From a virus: a stretch of 26,083 nucleotides of DNA. Position 1 is the stretch's first letter. Each line of letters begins with the position of its first letter. Both the position numbers and the translations under genes were made by a program. Shown piece after piece: positions 4,560 to 23,895 of the stretch. The notes under the pieces were generated by a model. That model was not told where the DNA came from. It saw nothing but the letters and a program-made list of their open reading frames with translations, and did no database searches. The DNA is taken from positions 1 through 26,083 of the IMG/VR virus record IMGVR_UViG_3300031651_000018. One strand, given 5' to 3'.

Positions 4560-6137
4560 ATGTCATATGCAACAATTACAGTACCTGAATTTGACCCAGC
4601 TACAGCTTTAAATTTAACAGATCATCTTTGGTTGACTCAAGGACTTGGGGTAGATAGGAATAAAAAACTTAGTATCGAACTATTATGGGATAGCGTAAAT
4701 AATCCAACAATTATTGGAACAATAATTCATAATAGTTGTTATATTGTTTCTACTCAAATAGGATTTAATGAAATAATTGAAAGAGTAGCTGCAAATCAAT
4801 ATAAAATAAAAGATGGAATAAAGAAAATCCAATTAAGATTTTTAATAGGTGGTTATTTATGCTATGGAGGTACTTCTTTTTTAAGTGATGGTGATAGTTG
4901 GGGATATCTGGAAACAAATGAATGCTCTGAATTATTTGCAGATAATGGAGCTTATTTAAATCCAGACGATAACCAATTTTATATTGAAACAAACACAGAT
5001 TATTGTCTGATGAAAAACATATCTGTAATTGCGCCAGGATCTTCTGTTGCACCAATAGATTATACATTTTTATTAAATGCTGATTTTGTTATATATGAAA
5101 ATTGTAGAATTAGTAATCGTTTATCAGATATAGTTATGACAGGATTTAAAGAGTCTGCGACAAGTTCTCATAATGAAACTGCTGCCTATATAGGTTGTAA
5201 AGTAGAGGGACTAGACGGAGGCAACCCATTTACATATTCAAATCCTTTTGGATTTTGCCATAATATTCAAAAATGTTATGAAGATAAAAATAAAATATTA
5301 GAAAAAGTTAACTGGAAAAGTGCTCAATTAGTTGGATCTGGATTAAGTATTAGTGGAATTGGTAACGCTGCTTTAGCTGCATTAAATGAAACAGACATAG
5401 CTTTTATAGACTCTACTGTAGAAAAATTAAAAACGTATAGATTTAATGGTAGTACATGGAGTTTAGTTGGATCTGGATTAAGTATTAGTGGAAGTAGTAC
5501 CCCTGCTTTAACTGCATTAAATGAAACAGACATTGTTTTTATAGATGCGGCTTTAGAAAAATTAAGAACGTATAGATTTAATGGTAGTACATGGAGTTTA
5601 GTTGGATCTGGATTAAGTATTAGTGGAATTGGTACCCCTGCTTTAACTGCATTAAATGAAACAGACATAGCTTTTATAGACTATAATGTAAAAGAATTAA
5701 AAACGTATAGATTTAATGGTAGTACATGGAGTTTAGTTGGATCTGGATTAAGTATTAGTGGAATTAGTATCCCTGCTTTAACTACATTAAATGAAACAGA
5801 CATTGTTTTTATAGACTATATTTTAGAAGAATTAAAAACGTATAGATTTAATGGTAGTACATGGAGTTTAGTTGGATCTGGATTAAGTATTAGTGGAATT
5901 GGTAACGCTGCTTTAGCTGCATTAAATGAAACAGACATTGTTTTTATAGATGAGACTTTAGAAAAATTAAGAACGTATAGATTTAATGGTAGTACATGGA
6001 GTTTAGTTGGATCTGGATTAAGTATTAGTGGAATTAGTACCCCTGCTTTAACTACATTAAATGAAACAGACATAGTTTTTATAGATACGGCTTTAGAAGA
6101 ATTAAGAACGTATAGGTTTGATTTTTATCCAATATAA
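4560..6137 (+). CDS. Second tail fibre with six-repeat beta-propeller-like C-terminus
   Basis: 525 aa. Residues 1-45 repeat the attachment segment of the first fibre, with the same ribosome binding site and the same start of coding DNA. Residues about 46-250 look beta-rich, with Gly/Asn/Asp turns and several cysteines. Residues about 258-525 are six copies of a 45-residue unit (VGSGLSISG..., LNETDIVFID, RTYRFNGSTWS). This unit resembles known phage and bacterial beta-propeller blades with the sequence YRFDGSxW. Six units, with a modified first strand (VNWKSAQL) and a cut-short last one (TYRFDFYPI), suggest one closed six-bladed propeller. It would be a receptor- or glycan-binding head. The stop faces the convergent protease gene 23 bases away. 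Confidence 0.75.
   Translation: MSYATITVPEFDPATALNLTDHLWLTQGLGVDRNKKLSIELLWDSVNNPTIIGTIIHNSCYIVSTQIGFNEIIERVAANQYKIKDGIKKIQLRFLIGGYLCYGGTSFLSDGDSWGYLETNECSELFADNGAYLNPDDNQFYIETNTDYCLMKNISVIAPGSSVAPIDYTFLLNADFVIYENCRISNRLSDIVMTGFKESATSSHNETAAYIGCKVEGLDGGNPFTYSNPFGFCHNIQKCYEDKNKILEKVNWKSAQLVGSGLSISGIGNAALAALNETDIAFIDSTVEKLKTYRFNGSTWSLVGSGLSISGSSTPALTALNETDIVFIDAALEKLRTYRFNGSTWSLVGSGLSISGIGTPALTALNETDIAFIDYNVKELKTYRFNGSTWSLVGSGLSISGISIPALTTLNETDIVFIDYILEELKTYRFNGSTWSLVGSGLSISGIGNAALAALNETDIVFIDETLEKLRTYRFNGSTWSLVGSGLSISGISTPALTTLNETDIVFIDTALEELRTYRFDFYPI
5331..6118 (+). repeat. Six tandem 135-bp coding repeats in the fibre gene
   Basis: Units start at 5331, 5466, 5601, 5736, 5871 and 6006, exactly 135 bp apart. 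The stretch of about 60 bases around each boundary, encoding TYRFNGSTWSLVGSGLSISG, is the same or nearly the same in the complete copies. Changes cluster at two sites: the four residues after SISG (IGNA, SSTP, IGTP, ISIP, IGNA, ISTP) and the stretch after FID (STVEK, AALEK, YNVKE, YILEE, ETLEK, TALEE). Near-identical DNA in the constant parts points to recent amplification or gene conversion. Confidence 0.97.
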
Positions 6138-14892: not shown

Positions 14893-14935
14893 AAAGTAAA
14901 AATAACTTGACTTTTTTTACTTTATACATTATATT
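14893..14935 (+). promoter_or_regulatory. Rightward promoter P4 with dyad operator across the -35
   Basis: TTGACT (14907-14912), 17-bp spacer, TATATT (14930-14935). A perfect 10-bp inverted repeat, AAAGTAAAAA (14893-14902) and TTTTTACTTT (14914-14923), surrounds the -35 with half-site centres 21 bp apart, two helical turns, as expected for a dimeric repressor. The palindrome TTTTTTAATTAAAAAA at the end of the primase gene lies just upstream and could act as terminator or UP element. Confidence 0.85.
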
Positions 14936-14994: not shown

Positions 14995-15269
14995 AAAGAA
15001 CAGTAAAAGTGTTGATAAATAATGAGAATATTCTGTATGCTATTGGCTTAAAAGATATCGCTGAACAAAAAAAATATTTTCTTGAACAGAGGATGAAAAT
15101 TGAGTGTCATCAGGGAATTTGTGGGTATGAATTACCAACGATAACAGAAGCCAGAAAAGATTTTAATAATTATTTTAAACAAATTGAAATTTCTTGGGAC
15201 GCATATAAAGCATTTAGAAATGACAATAAAAATTTATTTTTTGAATTAACTGGTTATTATCTTGAATAA
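14985..15269 (+). CDS. Small unknown early protein
   Basis: 94 aa, no family recognised (MTTKRTVKVLINNENILYA at the start; KAFRNDNKNLFFELTGYYLE at the end). Single strong promoter (P4) and shared leader upstream. Its stop codon lies four bases before the hammerhead ribozyme, so a ribosome at the stop codon would cover the 5' strand of the ribozyme. Function unknown. Small early genes of this type often encode host-takeover proteins, but nothing in the sequence proves this. Confidence 0.65.
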   Translation: MTTKRTVKVLINNENILYAIGLKDIAEQKKYFLEQRMKIECHQGICGYELPTITEARKDFNNYFKQIEISWDAYKAFRNDNKNLFFELTGYYLE

Positions 15270-15272
15270 CAA

Positions 15273-15337
15273 TATCGAAACTAGCCGTAACTGGCTAGTC
15301 TGCCAGACCTGACCTACTGGCACTGATGAGATAGGTC
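15273..15337 (+). ncRNA. Type II hammerhead self-cleaving ribozyme
   Basis: All core elements are present in order. Stem II 3' strand TATC (15273-15276), GAAA (15277-15280), stem III CTAGCC/GGCTAG (15281-15286 with 15293-15298) with loop GTAACT, closed by A15280-T15299, giving the cleavage triplet GTC (15298-15300). Stem I TGCCAG/CTGGCA (15301-15306 with 15317-15322), core CTGATGA (15323-15329), and stem II 5' strand GATA (15330-15333). The conserved G-C pair next to the core is kept (15330 with 15276). Cleavage is predicted between 15300 and 15301. GACC in loop I (15311-15314) can pair with GGTC at 15334-15337, as in pseudoknotted type II hammerheads. It is the open-stem-II permutation. Confidence 0.88.
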
Positions 15338-15374
15338 ATAATTTCCGTCTGACCTGCTCTAACAGGGGCCAGAC
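15337..15374 (+). ncRNA. Structured hairpin element, copy B (after the ribozyme)
   Basis: CATAATTTCC (15337-15346) followed by a 28-nt hairpin (15347-15374): GTCTG pairs with CAGAC, then one A-C mismatch, then CCT with GGG. The middle CTGCT and AGGGGCC match copy A. Relative to copy A, one pair changes from C-G to U-A and one from U-G to C-G, which supports a real RNA fold. It lies between the ribozyme and the 48-aa gene. Confidence 0.62.
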
Positions 15375-15407
15375 TCTAAAAATAATTTATTAAAAGAGTG
15401 GTATAAA

Positions 15408-15573: not shown

Positions 15574-15617
15574 AAAGTAAAAAAATACTTTACTTTTTTA
15601 TAATATTATATTATATT
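15574..15617 (+). promoter_or_regulatory. Rightward promoter P5
   Basis: TTTACT (15589-15594), 17-bp spacer, TATATT (15612-15617) followed by AGTAGTATAAATAAT. AAAGTAAA (15574-15581) and TTTACTTT (15589-15596) form an inverted repeat closer together than in P4. The -35 is weaker than TTGACT. It reads into a structured leader. Confidence 0.72.
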
Positions 15618-15624
15618 AGTAGTA

Positions 15625-15742
15625 TAAATAATAGAAAACACAGGATGCACAACCTCTTTCCCGTGTTTTTTCTAAAAAAAAGAGGATGATTGTTATACGA
15701 GGTTGCACTTGAAAAAGTGGTATGATGGTTGTCCTCTTTTTT
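15625..15742 (+). ncRNA. Attenuator-like leader or small RNA
   Basis: From P5 the first terminator-like hairpin comes at once: AAAACACAGG (15635-15644) with CCCGTGTTTT (15660-15669, one A-C mismatch), followed by T residues. A second is AAAAAAGAGGA (15676-15686) with TCCTCTTTTTT (15732-15742). Within it is CACTT-GAAA-AAGTG (15706-15719). CCTC at 15653-15656 can also pair as CAACCTC with GAGGTTG (15699-15705), or as CCTCTTT with AAAGAGG (15679-15685), so the folds exclude one another as in attenuators. Either a leader controlling the 15776 gene or an independent RNA of about 118 nt. No known riboswitch class recognised. Confidence 0.5.
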
Positions 15743-15775
15743 ATTTCTACATAAATAATGATATAGAGAAAATTA

Positions 15776-16114
15776 ATGCAAACACTTATTGAATTGTTAA
15801 AATCAGATGACAATATTATATGTAATAAAAAATTAGCAAGAAATATAGGGCTACATGAAACTATACTCTATTCTGAATTATTATCTAAATATTTGTATTT
15901 CAGTAAAAATAACCAACTAAACAAGTATGGTTATTTTTTTAATACAGTAGAAAATATGCAACAAGATACCACTCTATCTGATTCACAGCAAAGAAAAACT
16001 ATTAAAAATCTTGGTTTACTTGGTTTAATTAAATATCGTAGATACGGAATGCCTGCAAAAAGATGCTTTAAAATTGTTATAAATCAAGAACTTTTGAAAA
16101 AATACTTATTTTAA
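15776..16114 (+). CDS. Replisome-organiser-like winged-helix protein
   Basis: 112 aa. Pattern typical of the N-terminal wHTH of phage replication initiators: NKKLARNIGLHETILYSELL, YFFNTVENMQQDTTLSDSQQ, RKTIKNLGLLGLIKYRR, then YGMPAKRCFKIVIN. In these families the wing binds origin DNA and a separate C-terminal part recruits helicase or loader; here only the DNA-binding part is present. The next two genes carry similar helix-turn-helix domains, so the three may act together at the origin. The ribosome binding site is weak (ATAGAGAAAATTA), so the upstream structured leader could matter for expression. Confidence 0.65.
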   Translation: MQTLIELLKSDDNIICNKKLARNIGLHETILYSELLSKYLYFSKNNQLNKYGYFFNTVENMQQDTTLSDSQQRKTIKNLGLLGLIKYRRYGMPAKRCFKIVINQELLKKYLF

Positions 16115-16138
16115 ATTGCTCAAAAAAAGGAGAAAATT

Positions 16139-16375
16139 ATGATAATTAGATCCAACAAAAACAATCCCCACACATTAGTAAATAATCAATTCCTAAACAA
16201 CAAAAATTTATCCTGGAAAGCAAAAGGACTGCTATTATATTTATTTAGTTTACCAGATAATTTAAAAATTAAAGTCGAAGATTTGAAGAAAATATCCAGT
16301 GATGGAAAAGCAAGTACAGAATCTGCATTAAAAGAACTCATTAAACACAAGTATATTACAGGAGAAAAACAATGA
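16139..16375 (+). CDS. Helix-turn-helix replication protein, short
   Basis: 78 aa. VNNQFLNNKNLSWKAKGLLL, then YLFSLPDNLKIKVEDLKKI, then a second helix pair (STESALKELIKHKYITG) match the N-terminal wHTH of phage replication/primosome proteins (the 'SWKAKGLLAYLLSLPD' group). It is normally fused to a longer C-terminal part; here it ends at 78 residues and overlaps the next start by four bases (ATGA), as if the gene were split into two coupled parts. Strong AAAAAAGGAGAAAATT site. Likely an origin or helicase-loading factor. Confidence 0.65.
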   Translation: MIIRSNKNNPHTLVNNQFLNNKNLSWKAKGLLLYLFSLPDNLKIKVEDLKKISSDGKASTESALKELIKHKYITGEKQ

Positions 16376-17724
16376 AACAAAAAAGAGATATTTCTAATAT
16401 ATCCGTGGAAATGGATGATGATATTATTTTCATAACTGTGGAAAAATATAAATTATTTTTAAGCTACGGTAAAATTGGAATTGATGCATACCAACTTTAT
16501 AGTCATTTAATTTTTACTGCCAGACTACAAAAAACAAATAGTGTATATGCTAATAATACATATTTAAAAAAAGGCTTGTGTTGGGGCAGAGATAAATTAA
16601 TACAAGCAAAAAATTTATTACATGAATTAGGATTAATTGAAACCGTACAAAAAAAAGATGAAAAAGGTAAATTTAATGGTAATTATATTGTGGTTAAGAC
16701 AAAAACAAGCTCTGCCGGAGTACCGAAAAAACGGAGTCCGGTTTTAAGACGTAAATGCTTAAACGAGAAAGTAAAATGCTTAAACGAAGAAATAAGTGAC
16801 TCTATCGAGTCACAAAACTCTTCAGCTAATAAAAATTTAATAAAATCAGCTAATAAAAATTTAATAAAATCAGCTAATAAAAATTTAATAAAATCAGCTA
16901 ATAAAAATTTAATAAAATCAGCTAATAAAAATTTAATAAAAATAGATGAAATAACTATGTTTTGGAATAAATTAAGTAATACAAGAAAACATAAAGACTC
17001 ATCTAAAATTCATAAAAGAATTAATAAATTATTAAATGATCTAAGAAAAGGTAATTTTTATAAATATCATTTTGATGAAAATTTTTTAAATAAAAATAAA
17101 ATAACAAAAAAAGACCTAAAAATAAAATGGACAGATGAAAATATTAAAATCATTTTAGAAAAAATTAATTTAATTTATGAGAACAAATATTGGCCCTATG
17201 ATAAAACAAAATTAACTAAAGATTTAGATATTATTATTTATAATAAAATTAGTCAAAAATCTTTTTTTCTGATGTATATGAATAATACACCTAAATTATT
17301 AAATGCAGATAAAAAACAAAAACCTAAAAATATTATAATTTATGATAAGTATAAAAAATTATTTGCTATAAATGACCAGAAATTTGTAAAAATGTTTAAT
17401 GAATTTTATACTAAAGTACAAATAATTTTTTCTGATATTGAACCATGCTACAGACACAGATCATTTAGCAGTTATCTTGGGAGCAGTAGACGTCAAGAAG
17501 TATTTTTTGATATACACATCGAATGGCTTAAAAAACAAAGTCAGTTATTTCCTGGACTGATGAAAGGAAGGCCGTGGCAGGATTTTAAAAATCATATTAA
17601 AAAAGAATATGATTTTATTTTAGAACCAAATGAAGGAGAAAAAAAAGAAATACTAAGAAGTTATAATGAAAGTTGCAGGAGAATTGAGGCAAAAAAAGAT
17701 GAAAAAAATGAGTACTTTTTTTAA
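16372..17724 (+). CDS. Replication initiator-like protein with in-gene tandem repeats
   Basis: 450 aa. The N-terminal domain is helix-turn-helix-like (FLSYGKIGIDAYQLYSHLIF, GLCWGRDKLIQAKNLLHELG, then YIVVKTKT). A linker rich in Lys/Arg/Cys follows, then five copies of SANKNLIK (about residues 151-190) encoded by 24-bp repeats. The C-terminal 250 residues are basic and helical (PCYRHRSFSSYLGSSRRQEV, WLKKQSQLFPGLMKGRPWQD) and not recognised. The arrangement of DNA-binding domain, repeat-coding linker and C-terminal interaction domain resembles phage initiators such as lambda O, where the linker DNA is the origin. It overlaps the previous gene by four bases and the ligase gene by 26. Confidence 0.6.
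   Translation: MKQKRDISNISVEMDDDIIFITVEKYKLFLSYGKIGIDAYQLYSHLIFTARLQKTNSVYANNTYLKKGLCWGRDKLIQAKNLLHELGLIETVQKKDEKGKFNGNYIVVKTKTSSAGVPKKRSPVLRRKCLNEKVKCLNEEISDSIESQNSSANKNLIKSANKNLIKSANKNLIKSANKNLIKSANKNLIKIDEITMFWNKLSNTRKHKDSSKIHKRINKLLNDLRKGNFYKYHFDENFLNKNKITKKDLKIKWTDENIKIILEKINLIYENKYWPYDKTKLTKDLDIIIYNKISQKSFFLMYMNNTPKLLNADKKQKPKNIIIYDKYKKLFAINDQKFVKMFNEFYTKVQIIFSDIEPCYRHRSFSSYLGSSRRQEVFFDIHIEWLKKQSQLFPGLMKGRPWQDFKNHIKKEYDFILEPNEGEKKEILRSYNESCRRIEAKKDEKNEYFF
16822..16941 (+). repeat. Five 24-bp direct repeats, iteron candidate
   Basis: Units start at 16822, 16846, 16870, 16894 and 16918 (TCAGCTAATAAAAATTTAAT and four further bases, the last copy ending one base different). All are in frame within the initiator-like gene. 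Spacing of 24 bp and A+T richness fit initiator-binding iterons next to an unwinding region. Confidence 0.95.
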
Positions 17725-19942: not shown

Positions 19943-20344
19943 ATGTTAACCGTAACAAAAAAATTTGAATTTGAAGCAGCTCATTTTTTAAAAAATTATC
20001 AAGGAAATTGTTTTAATTTACATGGCCATACATTTAAGCTGGAAGTAACTATAGGTGTATTAGGAACTTGTTCAGATGTTTTGGAAAGAGAATTACAAAA
20101 TGGTATGTTGTTTGATTTTAAAAAGTTAAAAAAAGTTGTACAGGAAAATATAATTGATATATTTGATCATAATTGTCTTAATAATATATTTCCAGAAAAT
20201 CCCACATGTGAAAATATGGTTTTGTATATTATAGATAAATTAAAAAAATTTTTATTTGGTAAAGAAGAAAATATAAAATTATTTAGAGTAAGATTATATG
20301 AAACAAGTAATTCATATTGTGAGTGGTCTGAGGAAATTAAATGA
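19943..20344 (+). CDS. queD: 6-carboxytetrahydropterin synthase QueD
   Basis: 133 aa, full length for the family. Zinc ligands His14 (EAAHFL), His27 and His29 (LHGHTF), catalytic Cys23 in CFNLHGHT, FDHNCLN with the catalytic His/Asp pair, and YETSNSYCEWSEE with the conserved Glu. Converts dihydroneopterin triphosphate made by FolE to 6-carboxytetrahydropterin, the second step toward preQ0. First gene of a seven-gene operon ending with a DpdA-like transglycosylase, so the product is more likely to go to DNA than to tRNA. Overlaps queE by four bases. Confidence 0.93.
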   Translation: MLTVTKKFEFEAAHFLKNYQGNCFNLHGHTFKLEVTIGVLGTCSDVLERELQNGMLFDFKKLKKVVQENIIDIFDHNCLNNIFPENPTCENMVLYIIDKLKKFLFGKEENIKLFRVRLYETSNSYCEWSEEIK

Positions 20345-21003
20345 AAATATTTGAAATATTTGATAGTATAAATGGAGAAGTAAATGGAATTTCACAGGGT
20401 GTACGTTCTACTTTTGTCAGATTTGCTGGTTGTAATTTAAAATGTCCTTACTGCGACACTTTGTATGCAAGAGAAAAAGAGAGTGGTGAAATTATTACTG
20501 TTGAACAAATAGTAAAAAAAATTATATCTATGAAAAATCATGTAATAGTTTTTACAGGGGGAGAACCTTTACTATATGAAAAAGAAATTTCAGATATTAT
20601 TATTTTGTTAGAGAAAAATAATTTTTATTATAAAATAATAGTAGAAACAAATGGAACAGTAAAATCTATGTTTTTAATGAGAAATGATAAGAGAAATGAT
20701 AAAATTTACTTTGTAGTAGACTATAAATTACCTTCATCAAATGTAAATATCAATGAAATAAATTTTTTATACAAAGATTTATCTAAACAAGATATTATTA
20801 AATTTGTCATTAGTGACGAAATAGATTTTTATTGTTTTGTTAATACGTATAAAATAATAAAAGAATATTCTTTGGCACAAATAGCTGTTAGCGCTAACAC
20901 GAAAATAATGAGTTATAAAAAATTATTTACTTTATTACAAGAAAATAAAATTTATGATATTATATTTAATGTTCAAATTCATAAATTAATTAATTTTAAA
21001 TAA
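20341..21003 (+). CDS. queE: 7-carboxy-7-deazaguanine synthase QueE (radical SAM)
   Basis: 220 aa. Typical start (KIFEIFDSINGEVNGISQG), which is the substrate/magnesium region, then the radical SAM cluster CNLKCPYC with Cys31, Cys35 and Cys38. VIVFTGGEPLL is the SAM-binding GGE motif. VETNGTV and FVVDYKLPSSN follow as in QueE. The C-terminal part is shorter and more divergent. Forms the deazaguanine ring from the QueD product. Inside is a small direct repeat encoding RNDKRNDK. Translation couples to queD through ATGA. Confidence 0.92.
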   Translation: MKIFEIFDSINGEVNGISQGVRSTFVRFAGCNLKCPYCDTLYAREKESGEIITVEQIVKKIISMKNHVIVFTGGEPLLYEKEISDIIILLEKNNFYYKIIVETNGTVKSMFLMRNDKRNDKIYFVVDYKLPSSNVNINEINFLYKDLSKQDIIKFVISDEIDFYCFVNTYKIIKEYSLAQIAVSANTKIMSYKKLFTLLQENKIYDIIFNVQIHKLINFK

Positions 21004-21020
21004 AAGACAAGGAGAAAAAA

Positions 21021-21560
21021 ATGGTAACAAAAGAATGTTTAATGGAAGCTGCAAAAGATTTATCTGGTTTTATTGATTTTGATATTTCAATTGATGAATT
21101 AGAAAAATGTGATGTTGAGATTATACGAGACGAAGTAATTGAAGCAGCTGCTGTTTTAGAAGATGGCGACAAGTTAAGGCAAATTACTTTTGATGTTTTA
21201 CAAGAACTTGAATTGGATATTCCAGCAAAAATAAAAATTATCAAAGAAAAGGAAAAACCAAAAAAAGTTGTTTCAATAAAAGAAGAACCAAAAGAAATTA
21301 AAAAAGAAGAACCAAAAGAAAGTAAAAAAGAAAGTAAAAAAGAAAGTAAAAAAGAAAGTAAAAAAGAAAGTAAAAAAGAATATGTTTGTAAAAAAGGAAG
21401 TCAAGCAGATTATATTAATAATCTTATTCTTAAAAATATTTCTTTAGAAAAGATGATAAATTCTTTTAGTGAAAAATATAAAAAAAATAAGATTACTTCT
21501 AAAAATAGAATTAATTTACATTTAAATTTTTTAAAACGAAAAGGTATTATAAATGAGTAA
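21021..21560 (+). CDS. Unknown protein in the deazaguanine operon with Lys-Glu-Ser-Lys repeats
   Basis: 179 aa, not recognised. Three parts: an acidic N-terminal domain (about 1-75, [20 protein letters not shown]), a charged linker (about 76-125) with tandem Lys-Glu-Ser-Lys units coded by 12-bp repeats near 21317-21380, and a C-terminal basic domain (about 126-179, [20 protein letters not shown], then [15 protein letters not shown]) that looks like a small winged helix. Its place between queE and folE, with an eight-base overlap into folE, ties it to the operon. It may be a DNA-binding partner or regulator. The linker resembles the tail of the 3511 gene in composition. Confidence 0.6.
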
Positions 21561-22104
21561 ATTAATAGAAGATATTGTTGTTCGTCAATTACAATATATA
21601 AATGAAGATAGTGAAAGAGAGGGTTTAAAAGATACACCAAAAAGAGTTGTAAAATCATGGGATTTTCTTTTTTCAGGTTATAAACAAGATCCAAAAAAAT
21701 TAATAACAACTTTTGCTGCTGAGGGATATAATGAAATTGTTCTTTTAAAAAATATCGAAGTGTATAGCATGTGTGAGCATCATTTACTTCCTTTTTTTGG
21801 TAAAGCTCATATTGCATATATCCCTGAAAAAAAAGTAATTGGTATCTCTAAATTAGCACGTATTTTAGATATTTATGCCAGACGTGCTCAGATACAAGAG
21901 AGACTTGGTAATCAAGTCACAAATTTATTAATGAAGGAATTGAAACCAAAAGCAGCCGCTTGTATAATTGAGGCTCAGCATTTGTGTATGTTGATGAGAG
22001 GAGTACAAAAGCAAAATTCTGTTATGACTACATCTTCGTTAAAAGGTGCTTTTATGAATAATGCAAAAACAAGAGAAGAATTATTAATGTTAATTGGGAA
22101 ATAA
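21553..22104 (+). CDS. folE: GTP cyclohydrolase I FolE
   Basis: 183 aa, the usual size. Family features: [20 protein letters not shown], zinc site CEHHLLPF (Cys74, His77), [28 protein letters not shown] and [18 protein letters not shown], plus the third zinc ligand Cys in QHLCMLMRG. It opens the pathway by making dihydroneopterin triphosphate from GTP. Phage copies of folE with queD/E/C and dpdA are known from other phages with deazaguanine DNA. Starts inside the end of the preceding gene. Confidence 0.95.
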
Positions 22105-22106
22105 AA

Positions 22107-22352
22107 ATGAAAGTAATTAGTATTGATTTAGATGGAACAGCTTTACTTTATCCGGATATTGTAAATAATTTATATGAATATCCAAATAATTTTATTGTTA
22201 TTTTTACTTCAAGAAGTTCCTCTATTAGAAAACAAACTGAAATAGAATTATCTGAGAAAAATATAAAATATCATGCTCTTGTTATGGATGAAATAAGAGC
22301 TGATATTTATATAAATGATAAAAATGCTGGAGGACTTACATGGAAAATTTAG
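22107..22352 (+). CDS. Minimal HAD-like phosphatase
   Basis: 81 aa. Motif I ISIDLDGTALL (nucleophile Asp in DxDGT), motif II VIFTSRSS, then KQTEIELSEKNIKYHALVMD and a terminal IYINDKNAG with the acidic motif IV. This is a small capless HAD-type fold, shorter than most. It lies between folE and queC and overlaps queC by 13 bases. The role is unclear: nucleotide or pterin phosphate removal, or end repair of nucleic acid, are guesses. Confidence 0.72.
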   Translation: MKVISIDLDGTALLYPDIVNNLYEYPNNFIVIFTSRSSSIRKQTEIELSEKNIKYHALVMDEIRADIYINDKNAGGLTWKI

Positions 22353-23050
22353 AGAAAAAAGTGTTGTTGTACAGTGGGGGTATGGATTCATATATTATAT
22401 CTTCTTTATGGAAACCAGATATAAAATTGTATATAGATATTAAAGGAAAATATTCTGAATATGAAAAACAAAGATTGTCTAAAGATGTTATAATTGAAAC
22501 ATTAGATTTATCTAAATTTGAAAGAGATGATATGATTATACCACTGAGAAATATGTATTTTATTGCGATAGCTAGTTATTATGGAAATAATATTTGTTTA
22601 GGTGCAACTGCTGGGGATAGAGTTTTAGATAAATCTTTTGAATTTTTTTCAAAAATGGAAAATATTCTTTTATATTTATATCAAAAACAATGGTGGTTAA
22701 ATAAACCAAGAAATATTAGTATAGATAGTACATATAAAAATTATACAAAATTAGATTTATTAAAATTATATTTGAAAGGTGGGGGAGATATAAAGGAAGT
22801 TTATACAAAAAGTTTTTCTTGTTATTCTCCAGATATAAATGGAAATGAATGTTGGGATTGTAAGGCTTGTTTTAGAAAGTGGGTTACTTTTGCTAGTATT
22901 GGTTTTATTAAACATACTAAACCAATTTCTTATATGAAAAAAAATGTAATTCCAAAAATTCTTGATAAAACATATAGAAGAGGAATTGAAGAAGAGAAAT
23001 ATGTTATGCAGATTTATGAAGATTATAATAAAGGAAGGCTGTGTAAATGA
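22340..23050 (+). CDS. queC: 7-cyano-7-deazaguanine synthase QueC (preQ0 synthase)
   Basis: 236 aa. The ATP pyrophosphatase P-loop LLYSGGMDS (residues 10-17) is intact. A further motif is NICLGATAGDRVLDKS. The C-terminal zinc site is SCYSPDINGNECWDCKACFR (four cysteines in the order C-x9-C-x2-C-x2-C). Converts the QueE product to preQ0 with ATP and ammonia. No glutamine amidotransferase domain is fused to it, unlike the Gat-QueC phages that make archaeosine-like bases. Divergent from bacterial QueC in the middle. Confidence 0.85.
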   Translation: MENLEKKVLLYSGGMDSYIISSLWKPDIKLYIDIKGKYSEYEKQRLSKDVIIETLDLSKFERDDMIIPLRNMYFIAIASYYGNNICLGATAGDRVLDKSFEFFSKMENILLYLYQKQWWLNKPRNISIDSTYKNYTKLDLLKLYLKGGGDIKEVYTKSFSCYSPDINGNECWDCKACFRKWVTFASIGFIKHTKPISYMKKNVIPKILDKTYRRGIEEEKYVMQIYEDYNKGRLCK

Positions 23051-23895
23051 AGATTTATTATTCATCTTCTTTGAGTGATTATAGTTTTTTAAATTGTTCT
23101 GGTTTTTCAATTGGTTTATTAAAATCTTATTACGAATTAAAAAATTATAATAAACCAATTGAAAAACCAGAACAATGTGATTTATTGTTTTTGGATTCTG
23201 GTGCATATTCTGCATGGTCGAAAGGAATTAATATAGATTTATATGCTTATATTGATTTTCTTAATAAACATAAAAAAGAATTTAATGTTTATGTTTCATT
23301 AGATGATATAAATTCTCAAGAAAAAAGTATTGAGAATTACAAAATTATGAAAAAAGAAAAATTAAATCCAATGCCAGTTTTTCATTATGGGGAATCTTTT
23401 GATGTATTAGAATATTATATACGTCAGACGGATTATATTGGTCTTGGAGGAATGGGAAATATTATTCGTAATAATAATATTAAACTAACTTGGTTGGATA
23501 CAATATTTTCTAAATATCCAGAAAAGAAAAAAATAGGTTTTCATGGATTTGGTATACAAAGCAAAAAAGTTTTATTGAGATACCCTTGGAGAAGTGTTGA
23601 TGCGTGTTCTTGGCATATTCTGGCAAGATATGGGGAAATAGTTACACCTTGGGGAGCATTAGTAGTAAGTAATAAAATCAAATTATATAATAAAAATAAA
23701 TGGAAAACAGACTTTTCAATAAAAAAAATTAAGAGTTTTTTAAAAAAATATAATGGTAATTATGATTTAATTTGTGAAGGAACTACAAAAGGATCATTAG
23801 AAAGAATGAAAATTAATATTTGTTATTATGAGGAATTGTCAAAACAAATACCAGAAATTTTTATTAAAAAAACACAAAAAGGATTATTCGATTGA
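23047..23895 (+). CDS. dpdA: DpdA-like DNA guanine transglycosylase (TGT fold)
   Basis: 282 aa. TGT-like barrel signatures: LLFLDSGAYSAWSKG with Asp50 in the place of the catalytic acid, VYVSLDDINSQEKS, MPVFHYGES, YIGLGGMGNI, KIGFHGFGIQSKK and WRSVDACSWH with a second Asp. Similar short TGT-like proteins (DpdA) in phages with que operons swap guanine for preQ0 in DNA. It has no tRNA-binding PUA domain and lacks the TGT zinc cysteines. The overlap with queC (ATGA) supports a joint role. Bulk phage DNA protection from restriction enzymes is the known use of this system. Confidence 0.72.
   Translation: MKIYYSSSLSDYSFLNCSGFSIGLLKSYYELKNYNKPIEKPEQCDLLFLDSGAYSAWSKGINIDLYAYIDFLNKHKKEFNVYVSLDDINSQEKSIENYKIMKKEKLNPMPVFHYGESFDVLEYYIRQTDYIGLGGMGNIIRNNNIKLTWLDTIFSKYPEKKKIGFHGFGIQSKKVLLRYPWRSVDACSWHILARYGEIVTPWGALVVSNKIKLYNKNKWKTDFSIKKIKSFLKKYNGNYDLICEGTTKGSLERMKINICYYEELSKQIPEIFIKKTQKGLFD

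Follow-up and report, generated by a model that had tools for sequence, protein, structure and literature searches.

A complete and, from its sequence, functional-looking type II hammerhead ribozyme with a pseudoknot lies in a short two-ORF phage operon, where it very probably separates the messages for a 94-aa and a 48-aa protein by self-cleavage (Table 1). The DNA in question is positions 1 to 26,083 of the IMG/VR virus record IMGVR_UViG_3300031651_000018, and this entire stretch of 26,083 nucleotides is referred to as the window, with all coordinates on its + strand. The ribozyme is a genuine, newly found case of an already published ribozyme type, and its identity is backed by a covariance model, by many phage homologues and by the matching arrangement in a related phage.

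A search of the 26-kb window against all Rfam families with cmscan recovered an end-to-end match to the type II hammerhead family RF02276 with a score of 34.1 bits (E = 0.0016); with this family alone the e-value was 3.9e-7, and the match was the sole one in the record. The score falls 2.9 bits short of the gathering cut-off of 37 bits, which is a curated search threshold and not a defining biochemical feature of the family, and the alignment suggests that the tail and the A/T-rich stem II, rather than the core, account for the shortfall. A preliminary description of this DNA had assembled the hammerhead from TATC-GAAA, the stems, GTC, CTGATGA and GATA, and on direct reading all of these were found as claimed, with every core base intact. 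The covariance search that it had proposed as a check bore out the family and the core but not a score above the cut-off; the outcome that it had named as speaking against a hammerhead was a low score combined with an unconserved core, and what we observed is a slightly low score with an intact core. The features of RF02276 are present in the form of the core CUGAUGA ... GAAA with UH (GUC here) at the cleavage site, loops that close stems I and III, and an open stem II. The core pattern CGAAAC..GTC..CTGATGA matched once in the record and not at all in 100 shuffles, and the hammerhead has a GC content of 48.5%, against 26.5% for the record. The sub-cut-off score might be taken to indicate a chance resemblance or a decayed, inactive hammerhead, but this is very improbable given that all core bases, the three stems and the pseudoknot are intact, the single-family e-value is so low, no match is expected by pattern and the placement among genes is typical.

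Table 1. Features of the hammerhead locus in the window
Feature	Position	Strand	Basis or remark
Sigma70-like promoter (inferred), TTGACT-17-TATATT	14907-14935	+	10/12 matches; precedes the two-gene unit
Upstream ORF, 94 aa	14985-15269	+	AGAGGA ribosome-binding site; no known family
Stop codon TAA of the 94-aa ORF	15267-15269	+	3 bases, then stem II
Type II hammerhead ribozyme, whole Rfam match	15273-15340	+	RF02276 covariance match
Stem II, 5' strand TATC	15273-15276	+	3 bases after stop codon; pairs with GATA 15330-15333
Conserved core GAAA	15277-15280	+	Direct reading, Rfam alignment
Stem III hairpin, A15280-U15299 plus 6-bp CTAGCC/GGCTAG	15280-15299	+	Rfam alignment, folding
GTC triplet	15298-15300	+	Direct reading
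Predicted cleavage site, 3' of C in GTC	15300/15301	+	Rfam alignment, folding
Stem I hairpin, 6 bp, TGCCAG 15301-15306 / CTGGCA 15317-15322	15301-15322	+	Rfam alignment, folding
Loop I, 10 nt, ACCTGACCTA	15307-15316	+	Direct reading
Conserved core CTGATGA	15323-15329	+	Direct reading, Rfam alignment, pattern
Stem II, 3' strand GATA	15330-15333	+	Pairs with TATC
Pseudoknot, 3' strand GGTCA in tail	15334-15338	+	Pairs with TGACC 15310-15314 in loop I
Additional G+C-rich hairpin, past the hammerhead and before the 48-aa ORF	15346-15374	+	Competing fold, not unusual
Downstream ORF, 48 aa	15408-15554	+	No known family

A related contig, L002 (IMG/VR 3300042731_005307), with a primase 57% and a helicase 64% identical to those of the present virus, carries a hammerhead whose 40.7 bits exceed the cut-off; it is found at another locus, where unrelated small ORFs of 54 and 42 aa flank it. 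The order there is promoter-like box, small ORF, stop, hammerhead, ribosome-binding site and small ORF, with 2 bases separating the TAA from stem II and an SD plus ATG 32 nt past the core. The hammerhead of a more distant relative (L606/G004, helicase 25% identical) is likewise over the cut-off, with 44.9 bits, and is situated directly 3' of the TAG of a small ORF and 5' of an SD plus ATG. Given that both hammerheads stand beside other genes, the ribozyme recurs between different genes. Thus, as in the placement described by Perreault et al. (2011), the hammerhead is flanked by co-directional phage genes with variable neighbours, and its position between two small genes, as first proposed, is supported by both the related phage and the homologue set.

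Neither of the flanking ORFs has homologues. The 94-aa protein had none in viral contigs and no match in the L002 genome (relative G001), and the 48-aa ORF showed no convincing similarity to the 49-aa ORF at the corresponding position in L002. Close phage records yielded no DNA match and helicase matches of less than 60% only, and no relative was found in bacterial genomes; orthologous conservation of the hammerhead site is not seen because no close relative has the same locus. The promoter scan overall yields no more boxes than shuffled sequence does; boxes similar to the one in Table 1, also with a 17-nt spacer, were read by eye in L002. The start of the 48-aa ORF lies 78 nt past the core, a distance longer than usual for phage hammerheads.

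Loop I and the 3' tail can form a pseudoknot of 5 bp (TGACC/GGTCA), the core of which is the GACC/GGTC pairing put forward in the preliminary description. Its counterpart in L002 is TGTCC/GGACA, also of 5 bp and differing by a two-sided change. Among the matches listed, at least 4 loop I/tail pairs are available in 84% of 170 phage homologues as against 32% of shuffles, and at least 5 in 54% as against 8%; a pseudoknot of at least 4 bp is therefore a feature of the majority of type II members, and the 5 bp found here agree with it.

When the pseudoknot is left out, energy folding favours alternative structures, with a gap of about 2 kcal/mol if the ribozyme is folded by itself and of 3.8 kcal/mol if the downstream stretch is included, and the minimum-energy fold of 15262-15385 pairs the ribozyme with the extra hairpin downstream. 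This could be read as a switchable ribozyme, in which the hairpin, copying parts of stem I and loop I, sequesters AGGTCA and shuts off cleavage. We consider such a switch highly unlikely, in that the energy gap is ordinary (among the matches listed, 3.8 kcal/mol is the class average and 45% of phage hammerheads have a gap as large), the mean gap is larger with shuffled downstream sequence, and L002 is without the downstream hairpin element. A downstream inhibitory element was consequently dropped. Still less likely is that the structure serves mainly as an intrinsic terminator: stem III does offer a stable hairpin after the stop codon, but no T-run follows it on the + strand, for which reason this candidate was also dropped, and the sole terminator-like match is on the - strand.

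The placement of the ribozyme relative to the stop codon was surveyed across the class by four pattern scans of IMG/VR followed by structural filtering, which gave at least 170 non-identical type II hammerheads in at least 95 loci. Hits within a contig and in related phages are not independent, the counts are lower bounds, and ORFs were called mechanically; hence no p-value is attached to the survey. Among the matches listed, the stops of open frames of at least 50 codons form a sharp peak 2-7 bases before the C of CGAAA, with a density of 0.127 per base at -4 to -2 compared to about 0.004 further away, and there is no comparable peak on the opposite strand. In a set of 446 core-like sequences that lack the stems, and that may include some overlooked true members, the stop peak is only small; ordinary 7-bp hairpins that follow stops in the hammerhead-bearing contigs are distributed near-evenly across 50 nt. 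Of the listed matches with flanks, 102/152 (67%) follow an upstream ORF whose stop ends 1-10 nt before CGAAA (5.4% at random positions), 120/152 (79%) have an SD plus start within 40 nt downstream (15% at random positions) and 82/152 have both (1% at random positions). Averaged per contig among the matches listed, stop abutment amounts to 65% and SD plus start to 71%. Among these matches a stop abuts the ribozyme about as often when the next start is near (82/120, 68%) as when it is far (20/32, 62%; Fisher p 0.53), and since abutment is independent of the distance to the next start it is not merely the product of a squeezed intergenic gap.

The pattern extends beyond IMG/VR. Bacterial genomes contain 13 candidates, one of which (L482) is probably false, and 10/13 adjoin a stop. 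In 3/3 annotated Vibrio phages, which are mutually related, the stop codon of the CDS, as deposited, ends 2 bases upstream of the C of CGAAA, and the downstream CDS is located 21-38 nt past the core. Phage type II hammerheads thus generally abut a stop codon. We also observed contigs (L120, L036, L070 and L061) with about 7-10 type II hammerheads each, arranged serially between successive genes; the hammerhead clusters of L070 and L034 had no match in annotated phages.

The best reading of the locus is intercistronic self-processing, in which the two ORFs would stay intact and each new RNA end would lie in a hairpin. As the transcript emerges, stems III and I would form, and loop I would pair with the tail that follows stem II. 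The RNA would be cut 3' of C15300, the position that the covariance model predicts in agreement with the earlier claim, splitting the 94-aa from the 48-aa message with both frames undamaged. The upstream message would keep its stop codon and finish with the stem III hairpin, bearing a 2',3'-cyclic phosphate, and the downstream message would begin with a 5'-OH and carry the stem I hairpin at its 5' end; each product would be hairpin-ended, with its ORF whole, because the cut falls between stem III and stem I. RNA ends of this kind, with hairpins, a 5'-OH and a cyclic phosphate, should slow down the common exonucleases and 5'-monophosphate-dependent decay, so that separate control of the two messages is likely. 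The purpose would probably be that neighbouring phage messages made from one promoter can each have their own stability and translation.

A stronger form of this reading, that cleavage depends on translation of the upstream gene, is plausible. A ribosome at a stop codon covers about 10 nt downstream, and the 5' strand of stem II and part of the GAAA fall within this cover; therefore, a terminating ribosome lying over the 5' strand could block cleavage, and cutting would take place only when the stop codon is free of ribosomes. Given that stop abutment is general in the class, the hypothesis of a link between cleavage and translation is a reasonable one and does not hang on chance at a single locus. 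That the stop-adjacent placement has been selected so that a ribosome terminating there hides the stem II strand and GAAA is a more tentative proposal. It is favoured by the sharp class-wide stop peak 0-6 nt before the C of CGAAA, which is independent of the distance to the next gene and poorly explained by compaction alone, and by the 7 nt from stop to GAAA here, inside the footprint of a ribosome; but the same placement is expected if the ribozyme merely lies outside the ORF with the shortest 3' tail, and on balance we rather doubt such selection. The extension to the whole class, with phage type II hammerheads as stop-anchored, termination-gated elements in which each cut reports translation of the upstream gene, must be regarded as somewhat more doubtful still. 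For this locus the analysis shows the sequence, a consistent fold, homologues and the placement in the genome, and we infer cleavage, product stability and ribosome gating.

Several other features of the virus record were noted. Downstream of the 48-aa ORF and upstream of replication-initiator-like genes lies a candidate pseudoknotted ncRNA (window 15617-15746, +; L002 11420-11555, +), which here has its own promoter-like box TTTACT-17-TATATT (15589-15617). In both phages a first hairpin is followed by a stem of 18-23 bp with a 7-nt 5' bulge, then by a small hairpin (5-bp stem, 4-nt loop) and a T-run, and the fold z values are -5.1 and -6.2. In each phage every base of the bulge can pair with the hairpin 1 loop, and all 7 pairs differ between the two phages (GAGGUUG/CAACCUC versus AUUCGGC/GCCGGAU); of 18 long-stem pairs compared, none is broken, 9 are identical in the two phages, 6 differ on one side and 3 differ on both sides. 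The architecture of the candidate is shared with L002 and backed by covarying changes; the candidate matched no Rfam family and was absent from five more distant phages examined. At 15776-17724 a replication-initiator-like sequence is divided among three ORFs (112, 78 and 450 aa), where L002 has one 398-aa ORF. By their translations, the genes at 19943-23895 resemble a 7-deazaguanine synthesis cluster (QueD-, QueE-, FolE- and QueC-like), suggesting a modified guanine in the phage DNA; its 282-aa TGT/DpdA-like protein, the sole member tested, corresponds to the PHROG queuine tRNA-ribosyltransferase. Near the start of the TGT/DpdA-like ORF is a long, nearly perfect A/T-rich inverted repeat (23092-23177), and sub-threshold miRNA-like Rfam matches there were rejected as arising from it. 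A probable tail or fibre protein of 525 aa, encoded at 4560-6137, has about seven near-identical repeats of ~45 aa (SLVGSGLSISG...).

Since 2011 it has been known that type II hammerheads with a loop I pseudoknot occur between (pro)phage genes, and clustered ones are reported to self-cleave in vitro, one set in E. coli too (Perreault et al., PMC3088659). The present ribozyme shares with them and RF02276 the core, the permuted order, the open stem II and the loop I/3'-tail pseudoknot, as well as a location between (pro)phage genes that are not constant between phages; unlike them, it is a single copy in the fragment, with an A/T-rich stem II and a score slightly under the cut-off. Stop-codon abutment was not found in the text of PMC3088659, nor in the literature searched on phage hammerheads, which covers the relevant papers incompletely. 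A loop-mediated pseudoknot is also common to the hammerhead of PDB 8YDC, where it supports the active fold and replaces helix II, whereas here a 4-bp stem II and the 5-bp pseudoknot can both be drawn (PMC11300833). A review treats what hammerheads do in prokaryotes as an open question (PMC6155905). The placement rule, with a stop a few bases 5' and a ribosome-binding site plus start immediately 3', restricts the possible roles to intercistronic mRNA processing. In phage T7, RNase III cuts the early mRNA between cistrons, giving hairpin-ended messages with intact ORFs. The processing proposed here resembles that of T7 in its intercistronic cut, hairpin-ended messages and intact ORFs, and differs in that a protein enzyme makes the cut in T7, while here self-cleavage with 5'-OH and 2',3'-cyclic phosphate ends is predicted.
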